Positions 2,646 to 29,487 of a DNA stretch of 32,107 bases are shown piece after piece (positions within the stretch are counted from its first letter, which is position 1; each line of letters opens with the position of its first letter). The position numbers and the translations under genes are program-made. The stretch is from a virus. The notes below the pieces were generated by a model. It was not told the origin of the DNA. It saw nothing but the letters and a program-made list of their open reading frames with translations, and did no database searches. The stretch is taken from IMG/VR virus record IMGVR_UViG_3300044910_000278, positions 1 to 32,107 of that record; one strand, 5' to 3'.

Positions 2646-3650
2646 TTAAGCGCCGCGGTTTCTAATTTTTGCTAAGATATCAGCAGCTCTTGAATCACTT
2701 GCAGGTGCTGCTTCAGCTACTGCAGGTGGTGGAGTATATGCGTTAACAATACCGGCTGGTTCGTCCCATGGTAGGTCTTCTTCAACTGTATGTACTACTG
2801 GTGCTGCAGTAACAACAGGAGCTACTGTAGCAGTAGGTGCTGCAGGTGCATCGCTTTCTGAAATACCATATGGTCTAAAGTATTTGCCCCAACGTTCAAC
2901 GTCGTATGCTTCACCGTTAACTGAAGCTTCAAACATTTCTACCATAACTTTAAGTTCAACATCGTTAGGTTTTTTAGGTAAGTAATCTGATAAATCAGGT
3001 AAACCATATTTGTCAATTGCTGCGCGTTCTTCTTCACCAAGTGGACGTGTACGTCTGCTCCAAGTAGAAGTAGAATAATCTGCATAACCACCTTTAGAAC
3101 CAACTTTTAAACGGAAATCAAAACCGTTTACATAGTCTGTAGGTAATTCTGTAAATTCATCATCAAGCAATGCTGCATGGATTAATTTATAAATTTGTGG
3201 TCCAATAACAAATCTGCGGATTGGATTTTCTGGTTTTTCTTTTTCGTCTAAGCCATCTTCAGGAACAAAGCCGTGGAAGATATATGATTTCTTTTTCCAG
3301 TATTTACGACCCATTTCTTCTAAAGAAGGATCTTTAAACCAAGGACGTACTTCTGAAAGAATTGGACATACTGAACCGTCGTTGTACATTTCAACGCATG
3401 GAACATTTACTACTACTGGTTTGCTATCTGTACGACCTTTGATACCTGCGAAAGGTAATTTGATTACAGAACGTTCAGCCCAGAAAAAAGTATTGTTTGG
3501 GTTGCCGTCTGGTAGGAATCTAAAAACTGCTTCACCACCATTTTTAATAGTCCAGAATGGATAAATTGATTTATCACCGCCTGAATTACTATCTGTACTA
3601 CGTGTTTCTGCCGCTTTTAGTTTTGCTCTGATTTCTGCTAGTGTTGCCAT
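2646..3650 (-). CDS. 32: gp32-like single-stranded DNA-binding protein
   Basis: This 334-residue protein would coat single-stranded DNA during replication and recombination. The N-terminal LAEIRAKLKAA basic helix is followed by an OB-fold-like core with FWTIKNGGEAVFRFLP (32-47), KKSYIFHGFVP (120-130), RRFVIGPQIYKLI (145-157) and DFRLKV (178-183), the order seen in T4-like gp32 proteins. The zinc site is poor: only C85 and C95 lie near the position where T4 uses three cysteines and a histidine. An acidic EEDLPWDEP (290-298) sits in the low-complexity Ala/Pro tail, but the protein ends in a basic helix (ILAKIRNRGA) rather than an acidic tip. The ribosome site is AGGA before ATATTAAAATG. It is first in the recombination block. 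Confidence 0.88.
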   Translation of the reverse strand: MATLAEIRAKLKAAETRSTDSNSGGDKSIYPFWTIKNGGEAVFRFLPDGNPNNTFFWAERSVIKLPFAGIKGRTDSKPVVVNVPCVEMYNDGSVCPILSEVRPWFKDPSLEEMGRKYWKKKSYIFHGFVPEDGLDEKEKPENPIRRFVIGPQIYKLIHAALLDDEFTELPTDYVNGFDFRLKVGSKGGYADYSTSTWSRRTRPLGEEERAAIDKYGLPDLSDYLPKKPNDVELKVMVEMFEASVNGEAYDVERWGKYFRPYGISESDAPAAPTATVAPVVTAAPVVHTVEEDLPWDEPAGIVNAYTPPPAVAEAAPASDSRAADILAKIRNRGA

Positions 3651-3675
3651 TTTAATATCCTATTGTGTTTTGAGT

Positions 3676-3703
3676 TAACACACAGATGTTACTCTGTGTG
3701 TTA
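3676..3703 (-). promoter_or_regulatory. Hairpin in the gp32 mRNA leader
   Basis: A perfect 11-bp inverted repeat (TAACACACAGA at 3676-3686, TCTGTGTGTTA at 3693-3703) has a 6-base loop. On the mRNA it is followed by an A-rich, apparently unstructured stretch that carries the AGGA ribosome site. No T-run follows, so it does not look like a terminator. T4 gp32 represses its own translation by binding a leader with a folded element upstream of an A/U-rich unstructured ribosome site. This layout is similar, and an autoregulatory operator is my inference. Confidence 0.55.
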
Positions 3704-3774
3704 TATATGTTTTTTGTGTTTTGTAATTGTTTTATACTAATATATAAGTTGCCTTACTTTTAAAGTATGTGCTT

Positions 3775-3803
3775 ATTATATACTCTATTATTTATATGAG
3801 CAA
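3775..3803 (-). promoter_or_regulatory. Sigma70-like promoter for gp32
   Basis: The minus strand carries TTGCTC (3803-3798), a 17-base spacer and a perfect TATAAT (3780-3775). The -10 is consensus and the -35 matches at three of six positions. It lies about 125 bases upstream of the gp32 start and overlaps the late-type box at 3789-3796, which suggests that gp32 is transcribed both early and late. Confidence 0.5.
3789..3796 (-). promoter_or_regulatory. T4-type late promoter box upstream of gp32
   Basis: An exact TATAAATA on the minus strand matches the T4 late promoter -10 element used by the phage sigma factor gp55. It lies in the spacer of the sigma70-like promoter, in the intergenic region before gp32. 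Confidence 0.55.
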
Positions 3804-3819
3804 GTGAAATCTTTCACTT
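3802..3819 (-). terminator. Weak hairpin after the 427-residue protein
   Basis: An 8-bp inverted repeat (AAGTGAAA / TTTCACTT) with a 2-base centre lies 13 bases beyond the stop at 3833. The T-run is on the plus-strand side (TTTTTC), not the minus-strand side, so its role as a terminator for the minus-strand gene is doubtful. Confidence 0.3.
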
Positions 3820-3832
3820 TTTCATATTCTTT

Positions 3833-5116
3833 TTACCATTTTGCTAATTGTACTATTCTAGCTAAACTGTCTTCATTTTTAAACGAAACTGATTCATGCA
3901 TACCTGGCTCACCTGGGAGAGGATTGCGGAACATAGCTGGAGTATTTGGATCGTTTTGATCCCATCCACCAGACGGTTGTGCTGCAGATGCTGCTGTTTG
4001 TTGTGTTACTGTTCCTGGAAACACTGTTACACCTTCTGGTTTTTCCGGAGGTGCTGTTTGAATTGATTGTCCAGCTTCTTGTTGTTGAAGAGCCCGTTGC
4101 ATCTGTCCCAGTGCAGAGCTACTATACGCTGATTGTTGGGCGGTAGGTGCCGGCGTAGGTGCTTGTTGGCTTTGGAATGCAGGAGTAATTGCTGCAGCAC
4201 CTGCTGGAACTGCTGCTGGAGCTGCTGCTGGTGCTGCTGGTGCTGCTGCAGGTTGCATAGACGCATTCATTGAATCAGTTTTAAACTGTGCCTGGTATGC
4301 TTGCTCAGTGTTAGGTCCCATTATACCATCGGGTTTAAGTGGCCATCCTTGAGCAATTAATTTTTTCTGCAATTCAACTACTTTAGGATCTGATACTTTG
4401 CCTTGTGATGCTTGACCTGGTGTTGCTGGTTTAGCTGCAGCACCTGATGCAGGAGCAGTAGGTTGTTTAGAATTTGCCATTTTAAATCCAGCTGGCGGTT
4501 GTTTATATCCTGATTTTGCTAATGATTGCATAGTCTGTGGGCCAATTAACCCATCTACTTTTAACGGTTGGCCATCTAACCCTTTATGCGCTTGTTGAAA
4601 TGCTTTAATTTCTTCAGGAGTTTCTGGCCATTTAGCTTGGGCAGGTGCACTTGGTTTAGGTGCAGCACCACCGGGTGCAGCAGCACCTGGCGCAGCGCGA
4701 GGTCCTGATCCTTTATTCTCTGGATTAGCAAGTGTACTAAGTGGTGGTATACCGGGAGTAGGTGTAGTAGATTTACCGTAATTTTCTATCGGTGCAGGTT
4801 TATACGTAGCAGTAGACGGTGCTTGTTGACCAGAAACTGCCTGGTCAACAACGCCGCCCGGAATACCTGATCCGCTAGTAACTGGCGTTGTGCTAGTAAC
4901 TGGCTTTGCAGCACCTGTTTGTGCTGCAGTCCACGCAGCATTTTTATCCATTCCTGCTGCTAAATTTGCATTATACGCCTGCAGTGTTGTTTGTTGCGTT
5001 GCAGGCGGTTGTTGTTCAGCCGCCTGGGCACCGGTTGCTCTGCCTTCAATCATTGCCATTTTTTCTTTTAATTGGTTAACTCTAAATAAGAGTGCGTTTT
5101 CTGTAATTTTTTTCAT
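3833..5116 (-). CDS. Ala/Pro-rich protein with two peptidoglycan-binding domains
   Basis: This 427-residue protein starts MKKITENALL. I chose the ATG at 5116 because GGAG lies just upstream and the paralogue next door starts the same way; the in-frame ATG at 5134 overlaps that gene. Residues 22-26 are MIEGR, a candidate prohead-protease site (cut after E24). Two PG_binding_1-like repeats are visible at about 165-204 (LKVDGLIGPQTMQSL) and 242-278 (LKPDGIMGPNTEQAY). Long Ala/Pro/Gln linkers of low complexity connect them. The C-terminus, ESVSFKNEDSLARI then QLAKW, is shared with the paralogue. No catalytic lysozyme, amidase or peptidase motif is present. It may bind cell-wall peptidoglycan as a virion-borne protein; location and role are inferred. 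Confidence 0.85.
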   Translation of the reverse strand: MKKITENALLFRVNQLKEKMAMIEGRATGAQAAEQQPPATQQTTLQAYNANLAAGMDKNAAWTAAQTGAAKPVTSTTPVTSGSGIPGGVVDQAVSGQQAPSTATYKPAPIENYGKSTTPTPGIPPLSTLANPENKGSGPRAAPGAAAPGGAAPKPSAPAQAKWPETPEEIKAFQQAHKGLDGQPLKVDGLIGPQTMQSLAKSGYKQPPAGFKMANSKQPTAPASGAAAKPATPGQASQGKVSDPKVVELQKKLIAQGWPLKPDGIMGPNTEQAYQAQFKTDSMNASMQPAAAPAAPAAAPAAVPAGAAAITPAFQSQQAPTPAPTAQQSAYSSSALGQMQRALQQQEAGQSIQTAPPEKPEGVTVFPGTVTQQTAASAAQPSGGWDQNDPNTPAMFRNPLPGEPGMHESVSFKNEDSLARIVQLAKW

Positions 5117-18214: not shown

Positions 18215-18222
18215 TATTTATA
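18215..18222 (-). promoter_or_regulatory. T4-type late promoter box for the sheath-tube operon
   Basis: An exact TATAAATA on the minus strand lies 33 bases before the gp18 start and within the gap after the dNMP kinase stop, a good position for late expression of gp18-gp19. Confidence 0.65.
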
Positions 18223-21335: not shown

Positions 21336-22823
21336 ATGCAACATTTTTATGACGGTGCTATACGAAGATATGTCACCCAGACAATTAGGATTCTTAGTGA
21401 ATTTACAGTTAGATACGGCGACGGATCGTTACATCGTATACCAGTATTATACGGAGATGCTGATAGACAAGCTGCTAGTATCCTAAGACAGAATTCAGAA
21501 AATGCAATTAATTCAGTTCCTCGCATAAGTGTCTATATTTACGGATTAGATTTAGATCGAGACAGACTAGCTGATTCAACGTTTGTTAGTAAATTGCATG
21601 TTAGAGAACGTGATATTACTAATGGTGCATACACCGGAAATCGAGGTAGAAATTATACAATTGAACGATTAATGCCAACTCCATTTAAATTAACAATGAA
21701 AGTTGACATATGGTCTGCAAATACTGATCAAAAATTACAAATTTTAGAACAACTGTTAATGTTGTTTAATCCTAGCTTAGAAATTCAAACAACTGATAAT
21801 TATGCAGATTGGACAAGCCTATCGGTATTGAACTTAGATTCAGTTAATTGGTCTAGTAGATCAGTACCTGTTGGAACAGACACTCCGATTGACATAGCAA
21901 CATTAACATTGTCAAGTCCAATATGGATTAGTCCTCCAGTAAAAATTAAACAACTTGGTGTAATTACTAAAATTGTTACTGGTTTATTTGATGGAAGTTC
22001 TACTTATGCTACTCCGTTGTTCGGTGCTGATTATTTAGATCCAACTACTAAATTTGCCGAAGCAGGTACTGCATTTTTAGCAGAAGTTATTACAGTTGTT
22101 GAACAGTACAGTATTGAAGTATATGAAAATCAAATTACATTATTAAGTCCTAGTTATAGTAATGAACATGATACATCGCAATACAGCATGCCTGATGTTG
22201 AACGAGCAGTAACACCATGGGAACAAATATTATCAAAATATCCTGAAAAATTTATACCTCATTTTAGTAGATTATTTATAAAACAACGAAATGGTACTGA
22301 GATAAATGGTACTATTTCATTAAACAGTCAAGACGAATCAATTATGGATATTGACTGGGATATGGATACGTTAAATCGTAATACAGGAATAGACAGTTCA
22401 GGAAATTTAGACACTGATACTAATTATCATCTTACTAATCGAGCAAACAGTCCAGGTACGTTTGATGCAATTATTAACCCACTTGAGTTTAACCCACATC
22501 GACCATTAAAACAGTCAACTGATCAACCTATTGCAATAGGTTTACGATATTTGTTAATTGAAAGTATTGGTTCAGATACAAACAGCGAAGGTGCAGTTGC
22601 ATGGCGATCAACCGATGATATTGATTTAATTGCACACGAAAATGATATTATTGAGTGGACTGGAACTCGATGGAATGTTATATTTGATTCAGTATACGAA
22701 ATCGATACAATGATTTGGCAGACTAATACATATACAGGTATTCAATTTGTTTGGAACGGTGTTGCATGGGCTAAAAGTTTTGAAGGTTTATATAGGGCAG
22801 GTACATGGCGGCTGGAACTGTAG
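21336..22823 (+). CDS. 15: Tail sheath stabiliser gp15 with Trp-module extension
   Basis: This 495-residue protein aligns over its first 210 residues with T4 gp15 (272 residues), the hexameric cap that stabilises the head-proximal end of the sheath and joins it to the neck: HFYDGAIRRYVTQTIRILSE at 3-22, IPVLYGDADRQ at 35-45, NSVPRISVYIYGLDLD at 59-74, MPTPFKLTMKVDIW at 111-124, QILEQLLMLFNPSLEI at 133-148 and IWISPPVKI at about 195-203. The C-terminal 280 residues are additional. They include two WxGxxW modules (W441/W446 and W473/W478) like those in the sheath and the gp14-like protein. AGGAG precedes the ATG. The stop overlaps the Nudix gene by 19 bases. Confidence 0.88.
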   Translation: MQHFYDGAIRRYVTQTIRILSEFTVRYGDGSLHRIPVLYGDADRQAASILRQNSENAINSVPRISVYIYGLDLDRDRLADSTFVSKLHVRERDITNGAYTGNRGRNYTIERLMPTPFKLTMKVDIWSANTDQKLQILEQLLMLFNPSLEIQTTDNYADWTSLSVLNLDSVNWSSRSVPVGTDTPIDIATLTLSSPIWISPPVKIKQLGVITKIVTGLFDGSSTYATPLFGADYLDPTTKFAEAGTAFLAEVITVVEQYSIEVYENQITLLSPSYSNEHDTSQYSMPDVERAVTPWEQILSKYPEKFIPHFSRLFIKQRNGTEINGTISLNSQDESIMDIDWDMDTLNRNTGIDSSGNLDTDTNYHLTNRANSPGTFDAIINPLEFNPHRPLKQSTDQPIAIGLRYLLIESIGSDTNSEGAVAWRSTDDIDLIAHENDIIEWTGTRWNVIFDSVYEIDTMIWQTNTYTGIQFVWNGVAWAKSFEGLYRAGTWRLEL

Positions 22824-23254
22824 TAGAAAATATAATTTGTAGCGGGGCATTAATATATGCACGATCAACTCATCGATTTTTGTTAATTCAAAAATCGTCA
22901 GGTAAACACCAAGGTACCTGGGGATTAGTTGGCGGTACTAATTTAATTAATGAGAATCCGTGGCAAGGTCTTACTCGAGAAATTGAAGAAGAAATTGGAT
23001 TTATACCAGATATTATAAAAACACTACCGTTAGAAAAATTTGTGTCTAACGATAGTGTTTTCAATTTTCATACATATTTTTGTTTAGTTGACTCTGAATT
23101 TGTACCAATATTAAGTGATGAACATATTGCATGGGGTTGGTTTAGCTTAGTAGCATTACCAAAACCTGTACATCGAGGATTAAATCTTAGTTTGCGTAAT
23201 AAAGTTATTCAAACTAAAATTCAAACTGTTATTGATATTATTGATAGCTTATAA
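22805..23254 (+). CDS. Nudix hydrolase
   Basis: This 149-residue protein has a complete Nudix box at residues 44-66: G44, E50, REIEEEIGF at 58-66, exactly the G-x5-E-x7-REU-x-EE-x-G-U spacing. The core is otherwise typical: YARSTHRFLLIQKSSGKHQG before the box and WGWFSLVALP after it. Nudix enzymes split nucleoside diphosphates linked to another group. In T4 such an enzyme (NudE) hydrolyses ADP-ribose and dinucleoside polyphosphates. The substrate here cannot be told. The start lies inside the last codons of gp15 in another frame, so the gene is co-translated with a late structural protein. It is the last gene of the rightward block. Confidence 0.92.
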   Translation: MAAGTVVENIICSGALIYARSTHRFLLIQKSSGKHQGTWGLVGGTNLINENPWQGLTREIEEEIGFIPDIIKTLPLEKFVSNDSVFNFHTYFCLVDSEFVPILSDEHIAWGWFSLVALPKPVHRGLNLSLRNKVIQTKIQTVIDIIDSL

Positions 23255-23351: not shown

Positions 23352-23393
23352 ATACCCAACTATATTGTAGTATTTATACAATCAGTTGAGTAT
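23352..23393. terminator. Imperfect hairpin at the convergent gene junction
   Basis: In the 150-base gap between Nudix (plus strand, ends 23254) and the kinase-like gene (minus strand, ends 23405), three nested complementary segments form one long stem with small bulges: 23352-23355 with 23390-23393, 23357-23361 with 23384-23388 and 23364-23369 with 23377-23382. Neither side has a T-run, so a bidirectional terminator is possible but not certain. A TATAAATA (minus strand, 23371-23378) lies in the loop and arm. The rest of the gap holds no convincing gene. Confidence 0.4.
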
Positions 23394-23404: not shown

Positions 23405-23806
23405 TTATTTTAAAATGTTTTTTATTTGATTAGCCCAATAAATTGCATGTTTACTGTCTACTCTAATATTATAACTTTGAGGTTTTTCAAATAATTTGTT
23501 AGTATCATCATACTTACTACTATCTTGAGTATCAACAAATACTAAAAAATCAGCATTAAACTGTTCTCTAATAGCATTAGTTGGTGCAATAAAATCGCAT
23601 ATAACATAATCAGCATTTGAAGTATTTGCTAATGTCTTCATTCTTTCACACTGGCGAAGTCTTCCACCGACACTAAAATCCCAATCATTATATTGTTGCC
23701 TAATTGTATCAGCATTAAACCATTCTGAGTTAGGTAATAATTTAATTAATTCTTTTGCTAAGGTAGTTTTACCTGAACCAGGTAAACCCATAATTAAAAT
23801 TTTCAT
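23405..23806 (-). CDS. APS-kinase-like P-loop kinase
   Basis: This 133-residue P-loop protein has Walker A GLPGSGKTT at 7-15. NADTIRQQYNDWDFSVGGRL at 31-50 then RQ-x2-R matches the 'DGDNVR...FS..DR..N..R' order of adenylylsulfate (APS) kinases, and CDFIAPTNAIREQF at 70-83 matches their 'FISP...R' segment. FVDT (90-93) is the usual next strand. APS kinase makes PAPS, the sulfate donor for sulfotransferases, and one lies two genes upstream. The protein is short against typical APS kinases (about 170-200), lacking part of the lid, so a different small-molecule or polynucleotide kinase is possible. Its ATG overlaps the previous stop as ATGA and has no clear ribosome site of its own, suggesting dependence on coupled translation. 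Confidence 0.75.
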   Translation of the reverse strand: MKILIMGLPGSGKTTLAKELIKLLPNSEWFNADTIRQQYNDWDFSVGGRLRQCERMKTLANTSNADYVICDFIAPTNAIREQFNADFLVFVDTQDSSKYDDTNKLFEKPQSYNIRVDSKHAIYWANQIKNILK

Positions 23807-24333
23807 ACTGGGTTATTTTTAATATATTCCGCAACTGCGTATTCTCTAACAATAGGAGATGGCTCAAGTAGAGAGGCAGCAGGATAACCAAGATTAGTAT
23901 ACGCTTCGTGTCTAATACCAGCATCGGGATTAGCAAATGCAGATTCTAAAAATCCAAAAATTCTATAACATTCTAGCCTTATAGGCAAATACGTATCTGT
24001 CAGTCCGGCTTCGGTATAACCATAAATTTGAGAAGCTTCATGTCTTACCCAATCAATAGGACTATTTACTTGATCTTTTGAATAACCAACCATTCGGTAA
24101 TAGTTTTGTAAGTAGTACAGCGAGGTATCTTCAAGATTAAAATCATTAAAATAAACACTTGCATTCCATCTAATAATGGCCGAATCATCAGTTAGCGCAT
24201 CGGTAGTATAACCAAGATTATAATATGCAGCAATTCGAACCCGATAATCTATATCAGACAATGCATCAGTAGTAAACCCATTTGTTCTATAATATTTTAA
24301 TCGTTCTAAAGCTGATAAATTGTTAAAATCCAT
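23803..24333 (-). CDS. 22-residue HEAT-like repeat protein
   Basis: This 176-residue protein is built from about seven helical repeats, of which four are exactly 22 residues: residues 25-46, 89-110, 111-132 and 133-154. Their consensus is L-x-[DN]-x4-[IV]-R-x2-[AC]-Y-x2-[LF]-G-[YF]-x3-A. The positions resemble HEAT or variant leucine-rich repeats, which are longer (about 30 and 24 residues). Such solenoids bind protein partners; no catalytic residues are evident. A strong GGAG lies before the ATG inside the end of the sulfotransferase (11-base overlap), and its stop overlaps the kinase start. I do not recognise a named family. A scaffold for the two enzymes is a hypothesis. Confidence 0.85.
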   Translation of the reverse strand: MDFNNLSALERLKYYRTNGFTTDALSDIDYRVRIAAYYNLGYTTDALTDDSAIIRWNASVYFNDFNLEDTSLYYLQNYYRMVGYSKDQVNSPIDWVRHEASQIYGYTEAGLTDTYLPIRLECYRIFGFLESAFANPDAGIRHEAYTNLGYPAASLLEPSPIVREYAVAEYIKNNPV

Positions 24334-25108
24334 GTTGTCTCCAGTATTCTAAATTGCTGTATTGACGTATTAAATCATCTGGTAGCAATTGATAACGGTT
24401 AATTGCACCTACAGTTGGCTGCACATCATGTAAACCAACTAAGTTAAGTTGCGCATCGCAATCTTTAATATTTTTAAAATTTTCTATCTTAGTAAAATCA
24501 TGTTCAAAATTATCCATTCCTAAAAACTCATAAATATTTTGCATTTCGGAGTTTGGATTTGCTACTAACGAGTCGTATTCTAATATGTAAATACGATCTG
24601 CAAACGTAGAATGTATTGCACTTTTTAATGAAGCTAAATGCCGTCCAACACTTCCATCCCATTTCATTAAATTCTCACATCTAAAATATACATTTTGCGT
24701 GCTGTTTAGATATACAGGAGAATTGTATTGATATATATTGTCTCGATAAACTCTCTCAAACGAATTTAATATAGAAGGAATATCACGAACACAGCAAATA
24801 ATTTTTAAATCATCTACTACTTCGTTTAATAGTTCAACAAGGTTAGTCCATGATCGGTTTGTGTCAAAAATTATAGGTTTATCTATATCACTATATGCAA
24901 CATCAAAAACTGATTTAATCATTAACTTTATTTTGTCATTAGTTAGTAATTGATTAGTTCCAATCTGATCAATCTCCGTCATATGCTGTGTAACTAGTTG
25001 CACTGGTGATGAAATACTAGCATAACACATTGGATTTTGAACTAATATTGCCGAGAGCAGGGTTGACCCTGCTCTCGGCAACCCTGAAATAAAATAAAAC
25101 TTTTTCAT
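24323..25108 (-). CDS. Sulfotransferase family protein
   Basis: This 261-residue protein carries the PAPS-dependent sulfotransferase signature. GLPRAGSTLL at 9-18 is the 5'-phosphosulfate-binding loop. CVRDIPSILNSFERV at 106-120 is the 3'-phosphate-binding segment (R108, S112 and S116 in typical positions). Such enzymes transfer sulfate from PAPS to hydroxyl or amino groups of sugars, lipids or proteins; the acceptor here is unknown. Similar 'FISGLPRAGSTLL' proteins occur in cyanobacteria and aquatic phages, as I recall. It opens a three-gene overlapping operon with a TATAAATA box at 25127-25134 and a GAGGTG ribosome site. The codons of the cofactor loop form a 16-bp perfect inverted repeat. 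It lies just downstream of the fibre genes. Confidence 0.9.
   Translation of the reverse strand: MKKFYFISGLPRAGSTLLSAILVQNPMCYASISSPVQLVTQHMTEIDQIGTNQLLTNDKIKLMIKSVFDVAYSDIDKPIIFDTNRSWTNLVELLNEVVDDLKIICCVRDIPSILNSFERVYRDNIYQYNSPVYLNSTQNVYFRCENLMKWDGSVGRHLASLKSAIHSTFADRIYILEYDSLVANPNSEMQNIYEFLGMDNFEHDFTKIENFKNIKDCDAQLNLVGLHDVQPTVGAINRYQLLPDDLIRQYSNLEYWRQHGF
25048..25081. repeat. 34-base perfect inverted repeat inside the sulfotransferase gene
   Basis: Sixteen bases (TTGCCGAGAGCAGGGT, 25048-25063) are followed by two central bases and an exact reverse complement (25066-25081). In mRNA this is a 15-bp GC-rich stem with a four-base loop, starting about 28 bases after the start codon. It covers the codons for residues 10-20, the cofactor-binding loop. 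It is much more GC-rich than its surroundings and has no T-run on either side. Confidence 0.95.
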
Positions 25109-25126: not shown

Positions 25127-25134
25127 TATTTATA
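25127..25134 (-). promoter_or_regulatory. T4-type late promoter box for the sulfotransferase operon
   Basis: An exact TATAAATA on the minus strand lies 19 bases before the sulfotransferase ATG, in the 50-base gap after the glycine-rich fibre gene. It suggests late expression, with the structural genes. Confidence 0.65.
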
Positions 25135-25158: not shown

Positions 25159-27153
25159 TTAAGCAAGAGCTCCACCTACAGTGCCACCATTTGACCAAGT
25201 AGTAATTTTTGAAAAATTTCGTATTGCATACCCGCCAGTACCGCCGGTACCGCCGCCTGTACTATATCCAGAGTTCCCGCCAGCACCGCCTGCGCCTCCC
25301 GGGCCACCACCACCACCACCACCACCGCCTGGTAATCCACCTGATGCTTGATATCCTGCGCCACCACCGCCGCCACCGCTTCCGCAGCCTGCTGCACCGC
25401 CACTTCCGTTGCTAGCAGCTCGTGAAAAGGTACCAGAAGAGTCGCCGGTGCCGCCGGTGCCACCACTACCGCCGTTATTGTAACCACCTGCACTGCCTGC
25501 GCCCCCGGCGGAACTACCAGCATAATTTCCTGAAGTACTATATGCAGATCCACCGCCACCACCACCACCGCGATATGTAGTAGTTGGACTATAGGTGGCG
25601 CCGCCACCACCACCACCACCACCACCGTGCCAGCCACCGCCACCGCCACCACCACCACCACCGCCGGCAATTACTCCTCCGTTATAGAAGTATTCAACGG
25701 TTGTTCCTGTATCTATGTTTACTGCATCAGCGCCAGGATTGCCGTTATTTCCATTACTCAAACCAGAAGCGCCGGCACCACCACCACCACTGCCGGCCCA
25801 AATTGTAGCGTAGTTATATATTCTTATTCTAGGAACACTAGAGCCATAAATATGTACGGCGCCTGAACTACCGGCTGTTGACCAATTTCCAGTTAATGAA
25901 TATGTATTTGAAACCGGAGTTGGTGTCATATTATAACTAACAGCTCCAGAGTTGCCAAAGTTGGTATACAGAGTTCCATTAACAATTGGTGTTCCTTGAT
26001 AGTTAGAAACTCCAGAAAGCCACGCGCAGGCAGCACTAGTCCCTTCTGCACTTTCACCGTTTGCGCTAACTGCTCTAACGCTAATTAGATATGCTGTATT
26101 ATTCGAAGACCCGGCTATATTTCCGGAAGGAACTGTAATACTTACTCCGCTAATACTAAGAGATGTTACATTATAAGTGGTAAACGTTGAACTTCCGTAA
26201 TAATATCTAGCAACTACGGTATACGACGTTGCTCCGGCAGACGCTGAGTTTAAATATACTTGTATAGTGCTACTTGAAGTTAGAATCGCATAGTTAATTG
26301 ACGGTGCAGCAGGTGCTGTAGTTTTAATAACAGAACTAGTTGAAATACCAAACGTATTAGTTGCTTTTACATAATACGTATATTGAGTGTTTGCAGTTAA
26401 GCTAGTATTAGTGTAAGTATTAGTTCCGGATGCAGTGGTCCAACCAGAAAGTTGGGTAGTATTTCTCCATAAAGTAAATGTATACCCAGAAGTATTAGTC
26501 CATGATACTGTAATCTGCGTATCATTTACTACAGTAGCCGTTATTGGGTGTGCTAATGGTGTAGTTACCGAAAGGACAGTTGATGATATTAGTACTCCAG
26601 TTGAGTTAGAGGTTTTTACATAAAAACTATAACCAGTACTAGGAGTTAAATTTGTAATAATAGTATTAGTTGGATCAATTGTAGAAACTGTTCCAGTAGG
26701 TGATGGTGTACTTGATGTAATTTGTGTAGAATTATTCCATACAGTGTATGTAAATCCTGCAACATTTGTCCATGTTAGTTTAAACTGAGTTTCGGCCCAG
26801 GTGCCGTTAACTGCAGTAAGACCTGTTGGAGCAGCTGGGTTAGTAAACACTGATAATACCTTTGAAAATACAGTACCCGAAACATTAGCTGCCTTTACAA
26901 AATAATCGTAACTAGTATTTGCAGTAAATGATGAATTATTAATAACCGCACTACGAGTTGATCCAGTTAACGAAATAGTAAGTCCGGAAAATACAGTTTT
27001 AGTTGGTCCGTAATGTACAGTGTATGTTGTTATTGCAGGATCGTTATCCCACGATAACGTAAAACCAGTAGTAGTGTAAGCACTAGCTGTTACGTTTTTT
27101 GGTGGTGCCAGTCCGCCGGCTGCAACTATTAATGTTGATAAAATTCCACTCAT
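25159..27153 (-). CDS. FN3-repeat tail fibre protein with polyglycine adhesin domain
   Basis: This 664-residue fibre protein starts MSGILSTLIVAAGG. I chose the ATG at 27153 because AAGGA lies just before it; the longer in-frame start at 27207 would overlap the previous gene. Four fibronectin-type-III-like domains lie at about 14-100, 101-195, 196-277 and a more diverged 278-375. From about 430 on, short strands (VHIYGSSVPRIRIYNYATIW) lead into long Gly runs broken by Tyr, Ser, Trp and Pro, up to 11 Gly in a row. This resembles the polyglycine-II layers of gp38-type receptor-binding tips of T-even phages. It is probably the receptor-binding end of a fibre. It is the last gene of the fibre array. 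Confidence 0.85.
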   Translation of the reverse strand: MSGILSTLIVAAGGLAPPKNVTASAYTTTGFTLSWDNDPAITTYTVHYGPTKTVFSGLTISLTGSTRSAVINNSSFTANTSYDYFVKAANVSGTVFSKVLSVFTNPAAPTGLTAVNGTWAETQFKLTWTNVAGFTYTVWNNSTQITSSTPSPTGTVSTIDPTNTIITNLTPSTGYSFYVKTSNSTGVLISSTVLSVTTPLAHPITATVVNDTQITVSWTNTSGYTFTLWRNTTQLSGWTTASGTNTYTNTSLTANTQYTYYVKATNTFGISTSSVIKTTAPAAPSINYAILTSSSTIQVYLNSASAGATSYTVVARYYYGSSTFTTYNVTSLSISGVSITVPSGNIAGSSNNTAYLISVRAVSANGESAEGTSAACAWLSGVSNYQGTPIVNGTLYTNFGNSGAVSYNMTPTPVSNTYSLTGNWSTAGSSGAVHIYGSSVPRIRIYNYATIWAGSGGGGAGASGLSNGNNGNPGADAVNIDTGTTVEYFYNGGVIAGGGGGGGGGGGWHGGGGGGGGGATYSPTTTYRGGGGGGGSAYSTSGNYAGSSAGGAGSAGGYNNGGSGGTGGTGDSSGTFSRAASNGSGGAAGCGSGGGGGGAGYQASGGLPGGGGGGGGGPGGAGGAGGNSGYSTGGGTGGTGGYAIRNFSKITTWSNGGTVGGALA
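25301..25662 (-). repeat. GGT/GGC triplet tracts encoding polyglycine
   Basis: Several runs of CCA/CCG triplets on the plus strand (25306-25329, 25553-25570, 25601-25626, 25630-25665) encode Gly runs on the minus strand. Triplet runs can gain or lose units without frameshift, so the length of the polyglycine layers could vary between virions or strains. The limits given are approximate. Confidence 0.7.
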
Positions 27154-27163
27154 ATATAAATCC

Positions 27164-27694
27164 TTATGACACGCCTGCGCCTGATATAAACCATTTTGTT
27201 GATGCAATTTTAATTGCAGTTGCCATACCTCCTGCAGCTAATGTTCGCGTTGCAGTAGTATCACCTGATGGAATCCATACCATTGTATCAGTAGTAATAG
27301 TAATTGATAAAACACCCGAACCAGTATCATTAATAAATGTTAGTACTGTACCAATCGGAAATGCAACAGACGAGTTTGCTGGTATAGTATATGTATGAGC
27401 AGTTGCACTACTATGAAATATATGTTTTCCTGAATCTGTTAGTACAACAGGATAAGACACGGCTTGTGAGTTTTGAGGAACAGTAATATAACCAACACTT
27501 ACAGTACCATCAACTGTACATGCTGATAATGTTCCAGAAGCTGGAGTACCTAATACCGGAGTTACTAATGTCGGACTAGTTGAAAGAACTAAATTTCCAG
27601 TTCCGGTTGATGTTGAGACACCAGTTCCGCCGTTTGTAACTTTAAGTACACCCGACGAAACTCCTAAAAGTATATCGGACAAGTTTTTAGCCAT
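27164..27694 (-). CDS. Short tail fibre protein with GGTG motif
   Basis: This 176-residue structural protein starts MAKNLSDILLGVSSG. The NGGTGVSTSTGTGN segment (21-34), then SPTLVTPVLGTPASGTLSAC, is a pattern I associate with phage tail fibre proteins. The C-terminal 100 residues look beta-rich (HTYTIPANSSVAFPIGTVLTF, then a WF-containing end) and resemble a compact trimerising or tip domain. AAAGG precedes the ATG, and a GATAAATA lies at 27722-27729. Ten bases separate its stop from the FN3-polyglycine gene, so the two are probably made together. It may be an adaptor between a fibre shaft and the tip protein, which is inferred. Confidence 0.75.
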   Translation of the reverse strand: MAKNLSDILLGVSSGVLKVTNGGTGVSTSTGTGNLVLSTSPTLVTPVLGTPASGTLSACTVDGTVSVGYITVPQNSQAVSYPVVLTDSGKHIFHSSATAHTYTIPANSSVAFPIGTVLTFINDTGSGVLSITITTDTMVWIPSGDTTATRTLAAGGMATAIKIASTKWFISGAGVS

Positions 27695-29479: not shown

Positions 29480-29487
29480 TATTTATA
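29480..29487 (-). promoter_or_regulatory. T4-type late promoter box before the lectin-type fibre gene
   Basis: An exact TATAAATA on the minus strand lies 22 bases before the ATG at 29458, between two fibre genes. Confidence 0.6.

Follow-up and report, generated by a model that had tools for sequence, protein, structure and literature searches.

A putative phage sulfation module: a sulfotransferase, a repeat protein and a shortened APS-kinase-like protein encoded in one operon of a T4-like virus

Results and Discussion

The operon of three overlapping genes described here is probably a phage sulfation module, and this reading is well supported by the genomic evidence. At the level of sequence and predicted structure the sulfotransferase family, the APS-kinase-like fold and pocket homology, the operon and the joint gain and loss of the genes are established. 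According to the mechanism we propose, the kinase would phosphorylate the 3'-OH of host-supplied adenosine 5'-phosphosulfate (APS), which would give PAPS, and the sulfotransferase would move the sulfuryl group from PAPS to an acceptor. The repeat protein would most likely present the acceptor or hold the complex together. As acceptor one may think of a fibre of the virion or of a surface glycan, which presumed late transcription beside the fibre genes would suggest.

The operon and its neighborhood

The window, that is the whole stretch of DNA analysed, is a complete IMG/VR virus record of 32,107 bases. It contains the gene set of a T4-like myovirus, including terminase, tail sheath, tube, UvsX, a gp32-type SSB, baseplate, fibres and the gp15 tail-sheath stabiliser. 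Two contigs of 372 kb are among its relatives, so the window may represent only part of a jumbo-phage genome.

Three minus-strand ORFs are located at 23405-25108, and their coordinates reproduce the overlaps of 11 and 4 nt which had been described in a first-pass annotation of this DNA. They encode a sulfotransferase (Sulfotransfer_3) of 261 aa (24323..25108; PF13469 2e-18, phrog_27463 1.1e-52), a HEAT-like alpha-helical repeat protein of 176 aa (23803..24333; profile match to alphaRep) and a lid-less APS-kinase-like P-loop kinase of 133 aa (23405..23806; PF01583 2e-7, phrog_10255 1.9e-24). The same two overlaps are present in a relative with proteins 69-74% identical, and dN/dS values of ~0.19, 0.28 and 0.30 for the three genes against their nearest homologues indicate purifying selection; the three ORFs are therefore real, co-inherited genes. 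For gp15 the dN/dS value is 0.08 as compared to 0.19-0.30 for the operon genes, and in the same comparison identity is 94% for gp15 but 69-74% for the module. The module appears to be maintained but fast-changing or exchanged.

Directly upstream of the operon lies a minus-strand gene for an fn3-containing, glycine-rich fibre-like protein (25159..27207; PF00041 fn3 3.7e-17), which is a conserved neighbour in the closest relatives (cluster 28, L002-L007). The convergent neighbour on the plus strand encodes a NUDIX hydrolase (22805..23254; PF00293 2.7e-15). This gene starts 19 nt inside the gp15 gene, is kept beside the module in seven loci (cluster 11, L002-L004 and L020-L023), and its product might act on a nucleotide by-product. 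Further neighbours in relatives include genes for methyltransferases, for a carbamoyltransferase and for a glycosyltransferase of family GT9, which are typical of glycan decoration. In another lineage (L009 and L014) a gene of cluster 12 (3495-4001, 168 aa, no known family) is situated between fibre and kinase (4001-4468), and the sulfotransferase is found 6-7 kb away.

The octamer TATAAATA, a T4-type late-promoter-like box, occurs at 25127..25134 on the minus strand and precedes the ATG of the sulfotransferase gene, the first of the operon, by 18 nt. Six copies were found in the window versus 5.8 expected, so the octamer itself is not enriched. Its position is nevertheless informative, because three of the six copies precede a start on their own strand by no more than 40 nt (p = 1.4e-4). 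Two further boxes, at 18215-18222 (minus strand, 32 nt upstream of the tail-sheath gene) and 29480-29487 (minus strand, 21 nt upstream of a fibre/baseplate gene), are consistent with T4-type late promoters. A further minus-strand copy at 23371-23378 is intergenic, past the kinase gene, and is not closely followed by a gene on its strand. The late box assigned to the operon by the first-pass annotation is in place in this phage, but in the nearest relative it differs by one base (CATAAATA), and in others no box was found in the 70 nt preceding the sulfotransferase. Late expression of the operon is plausible for this phage, with a box that is not conserved in relatives.

The sulfotransferase

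By sequence, the first gene encodes a clear Sulfotransfer_3 enzyme which is nearest to the tyrosylprotein sulfotransferases (TPSTs). Its PF13469 match scores 67.9 bits with a cut-off of 27, and PF00685 (Sulfotransfer_1) is matched as well (1.6e-11). The PAPS-binding 5'-PSB loop GLPRAGSTLL, by which the gene had been recognized before, is present, so that motif and both Pfam families bear out the earlier assignment. P11, R12, G14 and T16 of the LPRxGxT loop as well as the 3'-phosphate-binding residues R108 and S116 are invariant across ten relatives.

A profile of these relatives, compared with the PDB, matched TPST1 best (2.6e-14), followed by CurM-type and then by SULT enzymes. TPST1/2 and CurM, which belong to Sulfotransfer_3, are therefore the best solved relatives by profile, and their PAPS-binding motifs are the same as those of the phage enzyme. 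The catalytic Glu of TPST, which we take to be the Glu in the GEETR segment, has no counterpart in the phage sulfotransferase, as the residues aligned to it are Ser or Thr in the phage profile. For this reason TPST was rejected as the class of the window enzyme.

Homologues 24-35% identical to the window enzyme are encoded by the cyanophages S-SKS1 and S-SRM01 and by OM43 phages. In the two annotated cyanophage records the annotation shows no APS kinase gene up to 6 kb from the sulfotransferase, so a phage sulfotransferase may work without one. PF13469 genes have already been described in phages, with their function stated as unclear (PMC10580990).

The kinase and its departures from CysC

The P-loop, FS..GR..Q..R and FIAP segments which had been quoted for the last gene are all found, as GLPGSGKT, FSVGGRLRQCER and DFIAP. 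PF01583 (APS_kinase) is the best match among 40 P-loop families, with 31.6 bits and a cut-off of 21.1. The apsK equivalog TIGR00455 reaches 25.1 bits, below its cut-off of 138.7. When the profile of the kinase family was compared with the PDB, the top 16 matches were APS kinases or PAPS synthases (2yvu, 2.4e-11); the best match of another kind was adenylate kinase 9 (1.2e-6) and the weakest was nicotinamide riboside (NR) kinase (6e-4). The AF2 model has a pLDDT of 97. In a Foldseek search with this model ranks 1-41 are all APS kinases or their domains (TMq 0.72-0.88), APS- and PAPS-bound structures among them, with shikimate kinase next. Polynucleotide and nucleoside kinases, which as best match would have refuted the reading of the first-pass annotation, score lower than APS kinases in Pfam, PDB profile and fold. 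They were rejected, as was NR kinase on the same grounds.

An hhalign comparison with E. coli CysC gave 97.1% probability over 114 columns (residues 5-118), interrupted at the lid by a gap of 18 residues. Common to both are NADxxR, FSxxxR, FIxP and an aromatic residue plus TN..FExP. In 48 kinase relatives G7, L8, G12 and K13 are invariant; D33 is conserved in at least 90%, and R36, F44 and R49 are invariant, these positions being aligned to DGDNVR and FSDADR of CysC. Y99-DDTN..FEKP is aligned to FTGID..YExP of CysC, where the aromatic F/Y, T102, F106 and P109 are conserved but GID is not. Other features differ. The lid with KGLYKKAR is deleted in the window kinase and its phage relatives, an invariant Q52 is found in the phage family where CysC has the pocket Asn (ENIRR, after FSxxxR), and the Ser preceding FISP in CysC is replaced by Asp in the window kinase. 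In comparison to the CysC/PAPS-synthase kinase domain (PF01583) the fold is thus the same and the P-loop, NxDxxR, FSxxxR, xFIxP and (F/Y)xxTN..FExP blocks can be aligned from end to end. CysC, however, comprises ~180-200 aa with an 18-residue lid, the pocket Asn and an SFISP-type segment, whereas the window kinase has 133 aa, Gln, DFIAP and no lid.

The proposal of a donor-making kinase is therefore upheld as far as the best match is concerned, which is to APS kinases in Pfam, PDB profile, fold and full-length CysC alignment; with respect to lid, pocket Asn and apsK cut-off it is not. As far as sequence can tell, the protein works like an APS kinase and yet lacks defining features of the CysC family, for which reason we call it APS-kinase-like. 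It is a shortened, atypical enzyme and not a standard APS kinase. Because the lid is absent, the pocket Asn is changed to Gln and the apsK score is far below the cut-off, we only infer that APS is the substrate.

ATP sulfurylase (PF01747) did not reach the cut-off in any of 50 kinase-bearing phage records. A phage-encoded ATP sulfurylase was thereby ruled out for these records, and if APS is the substrate the host must supply it, as the first-pass annotation had supposed. In the portion of the window ORFs that was scanned no other sulfate-assimilation gene was found.

The repeat protein

The middle gene product has no significant match in Pfam, PHROG or NCBIfam, the Pfam family HEAT_2 reaching only 0.26. 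Its profile extends to the alphaRep (designed HEAT) proteins with 3.6e-5. The AF2 model (pLDDT 78), for which Foldseek returned nothing significant, shows a row of paired helices and is poor in its C-terminal third. The protein was found solely together with kinase and sulfotransferase genes, and no homologue was found among isolated phages. It is possibly a HEAT-like repeat protein serving as scaffold or adaptor, and as such it would hold or present the substrate.

Joint occurrence of kinase and sulfotransferase

At least 418 relatives of the kinase are present in viral contigs. Co-occurrence was counted in 43 phage records which were chosen by a gp15-like protein and not by the kinase. Both genes are found in 18 of them and neither in 24; the kinase occurs alone in one record, a 5.8-kb fragment, and the sulfotransferase alone in none (Fisher p = 3e-11, uncorrected for relatedness). 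For records of at least 18 kb, joint presence was 12/12 versus 0/9. On the gp15 tree kinase and sulfotransferase each change five times, and four independent pairs agree, a number too small for significance alone. Adjacency alone does not explain this co-occurrence, because in three records (G005, G052 and G075) the two genes are ~4-7 kb apart and still occur together. The question raised by the first-pass annotation, whether the genes go together in other phages or are found apart, is thus answered in favour of the former for kinase and sulfotransferase. In the kinase tree the window sequence falls into a clade of stand-alone kinases, 25 of whose 31 members are accompanied by a sulfotransferase or by the sulfotransferase-like cluster 7; branch support is moderate, and most alphaproteobacterial, SAR86 and gammaproteobacterial cellular sequences were lost in the motif filter.

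The proteins of cluster 7 (160-250 aa) are encoded beside the kinase and 2OG-oxygenases in several loci (L026, L029, L045, L049, L054, L076; e.g. L046:3324-4004). They exhibit a PSB-like SHCGSTLL loop and 75% hhalign probability over 36 residues, with no Pfam or PHROG match, and are likely, but not certainly, a third sulfotransferase family.

Sister kinases and cellular relatives

The remaining half of the kinase tree consists of kinases associated, by fusion or adjacency, with a small nucleotidyltransferase that has the motifs GRWQPWHxGH...ISATKIR and is nearest to NMN adenylyltransferases (2qjt, 2.1e-7). Fusions are encoded in L027 (4001-4786), L034, L051, L058 and L075, and in L053 (4413-4823) and L061 (1896-2261) the nucleotidyltransferase follows the kinase directly. 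The family phrog_10255, annotated as 'kinase' and no more, is such a fusion, to whose N-terminal half the window kinase corresponds. PF13469 is found in 22 of 50 kinase-bearing phage records and the nucleotidyltransferase in 13 of 50 (a set differing by one record), both together in only two. In the larger kinase family the partner is often a nucleotidyltransferase and not a sulfotransferase, which counts against the module. The window-type clade, including the 372-kb contig G075, has no nucleotidyltransferase partner; in G012 a different ORF, of 313 aa, gives no more than a weak match. In one fused lineage a Sulfotransfer_2 gene overlaps by 4 nt. A fusion-sized homologue from Stenotrophomonas phage Bhz60 (L100) has genes for NADAR, a MazG-like protein and a DNA methyltransferase as neighbours, a setting unlike that in the window. 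A DNA-hypermodification kinase, which the methyltransferase gene brought to mind, was rejected; the window-type genes adjoin fibres and sulfotransferases.

Genes for kinase and nucleotidyltransferase are likewise paired in cells, namely in marine proteobacteria such as SAR11 and SAR86. The cellular sample consists of 30 kinase-bearing marine genomes, most of them incomplete single-cell or metagenome assemblies, and includes no kinase-free genomes. A PF13469 match, in many cases weak or partial, is present in 25 of these. Sat was found in two and CysD in two others, which leaves 26 of the 30 without a recognised ATP sulfurylase; apsK is over the cut-off in two, with five weaker candidates in addition. 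In three gammaproteobacteria a sulfotransferase ORF is located 1-3 kb from the kinase. In SAR11 loci (L181, L203, L209 and others) the pair lies amid genes for DMSP-demethylase-like, methanethiol-oxidase-like and enoyl-CoA hydratase proteins. CysQ, kinase and nucleotidyltransferase stand in a row in marine Alphaproteobacteria (L183:4198-4989 and next genes; G099-G108), with CysQ (TIGR01331, over cut-off) directly upstream of the kinase in 10/10 sampled alphaproteobacterial genomes of one group and Xsc nearby in many of the CysQ-kinase loci. CysQ strips the 3'-phosphate from PAP and PAPS, and therefore this context supports a 3'-phosphoadenylyl product.

The arrangement is similar to that of bifunctional PAPS synthase, where adenylyl transfer is followed by 3'-phosphorylation and the kinase is likewise fused or coupled to a nucleotidyltransferase. 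The partner domain is PF01747 in PAPS synthase and NMNAT-like in the sister kinases, whereas the window kinase has neither. The nucleotidyltransferase of the sister kinases and ATP sulfurylase presumably belong to one broad superfamily. Kinase and NMNAT-like protein are thus suggestive of an alternative, as yet unproven PAPS-making pair. Tentatively, and with considerable doubt, one may go further and suppose that lid-less kinases which form PAPS make up a family not recognised before. In many phages and in marine bacteria, SAR11 and SAR86 among them, the NMNAT-like partner would replace ATP sulfurylase, and phages like this one would have borrowed the kinase for their own sulfotransferase. 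SAR11 genomes were noted earlier to encode sulfotransferases (PMC2217521).

Alternative explanations

The CTP_transf-like/NMNAT-like nucleotidyltransferase of the sister kinases is of a type able to make a nucleotide conjugate other than APS, and the changes in lid and pocket fit a changed substrate. The main rival reading, which we regard as unlikely, is therefore that the kinase 3'-phosphorylates such a conjugate and that the enzyme with the sulfotransferase fold transfers that group and not sulfate. The model would be Cj1415, the cytidine diphosphoramidate kinase of Campylobacter jejuni and presumably a member of the APS-kinase-type family, which is likened to the window kinase by description and not by sequence, as a 3'-kinase feeding a surface-glycan transferase. 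APS-kinase-like chemistry on another substrate is indeed known, as Cj1415-Cj1418 make CDP-phosphoramidate 3'-phosphate in Campylobacter (PMC11800397). However, Cj1415 acts on CDP-phosphoramidate, and its nucleotidyltransferase and amidotransferase partners were not seen in the window. No nucleotidyltransferase accompanies the window-type clade even in the 372-kb G075, CysQ and Xsc (sulfonate metabolism) beside the cellular kin point to sulfur, and the sulfotransferase has ordinary PAPS-binding motifs. The NMNAT-like nature of the sister nucleotidyltransferase (2qjt, 2.1e-7), together with the NADAR gene adjoining the Bhz60 homologue, which is annotated only as kinase, could also be taken as a hint of nicotinamide riboside/NAD salvage, with a NadR-like kinase plus NMN adenylyltransferase and a sulfotransferase that is nearby by chance. 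This is very improbable, since NR kinase comes last among the PDB profile matches (6e-4 versus 2.4e-11 for APS kinase), Foldseek puts APS kinases first, no nucleotidyltransferase goes with the window-type genes, and it would be left unexplained why kinase and sulfotransferase are gained and lost together.

The idea of a phage-carried APS kinase has already been published from metagenomes, where viral cysC was read as an auxiliary metabolic gene (AMG) for assimilatory sulfate reduction and listed as not validated (PMC12713726). In the literature on viral cysC that we searched no link to a sulfotransferase operon was found, and a literature search on phage sulfation gave nothing relevant. If the window kinase were likewise to feed PAPS to host sulfate assimilation, the sulfotransferase would act independently of it. 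We give this little credence: the two genes belong to one overlapping operon and are gained and lost together, the genes nearby in relatives code for glycosyltransferase, carbamoyltransferase and methyltransferase, and no other assimilation gene was seen among the window ORFs scanned. Finally, fibre regions often turn over cargo genes and the kinase has other neighbours in many of 80 loci, so the parts might all be ordinary, unrelated cargo of the fibre region. The 18/18 concordance in phages picked by another gene, non-adjacent cases included, makes this hardly credible.

Target and significance of the module

For the sulfation module, the clues to the target diverge. The genomic context points rather to a glycan or fibre, whereas the solved enzymes closest to the sulfotransferase sulfate protein tyrosines. 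A fibre or a host glycan as sulfation target is our guess. For the bacteria the study raises the question how kinase-bearing marine genomes without a recognised ATP sulfurylase make PAPS, if at all. For the phages, a linked donor-making kinase offers a concrete and testable reason for the presence of sulfotransferases in their genomes, and those that install sulfate on a fibre or on the host surface could thereby alter adsorption, prevent superinfection or mask their virions.
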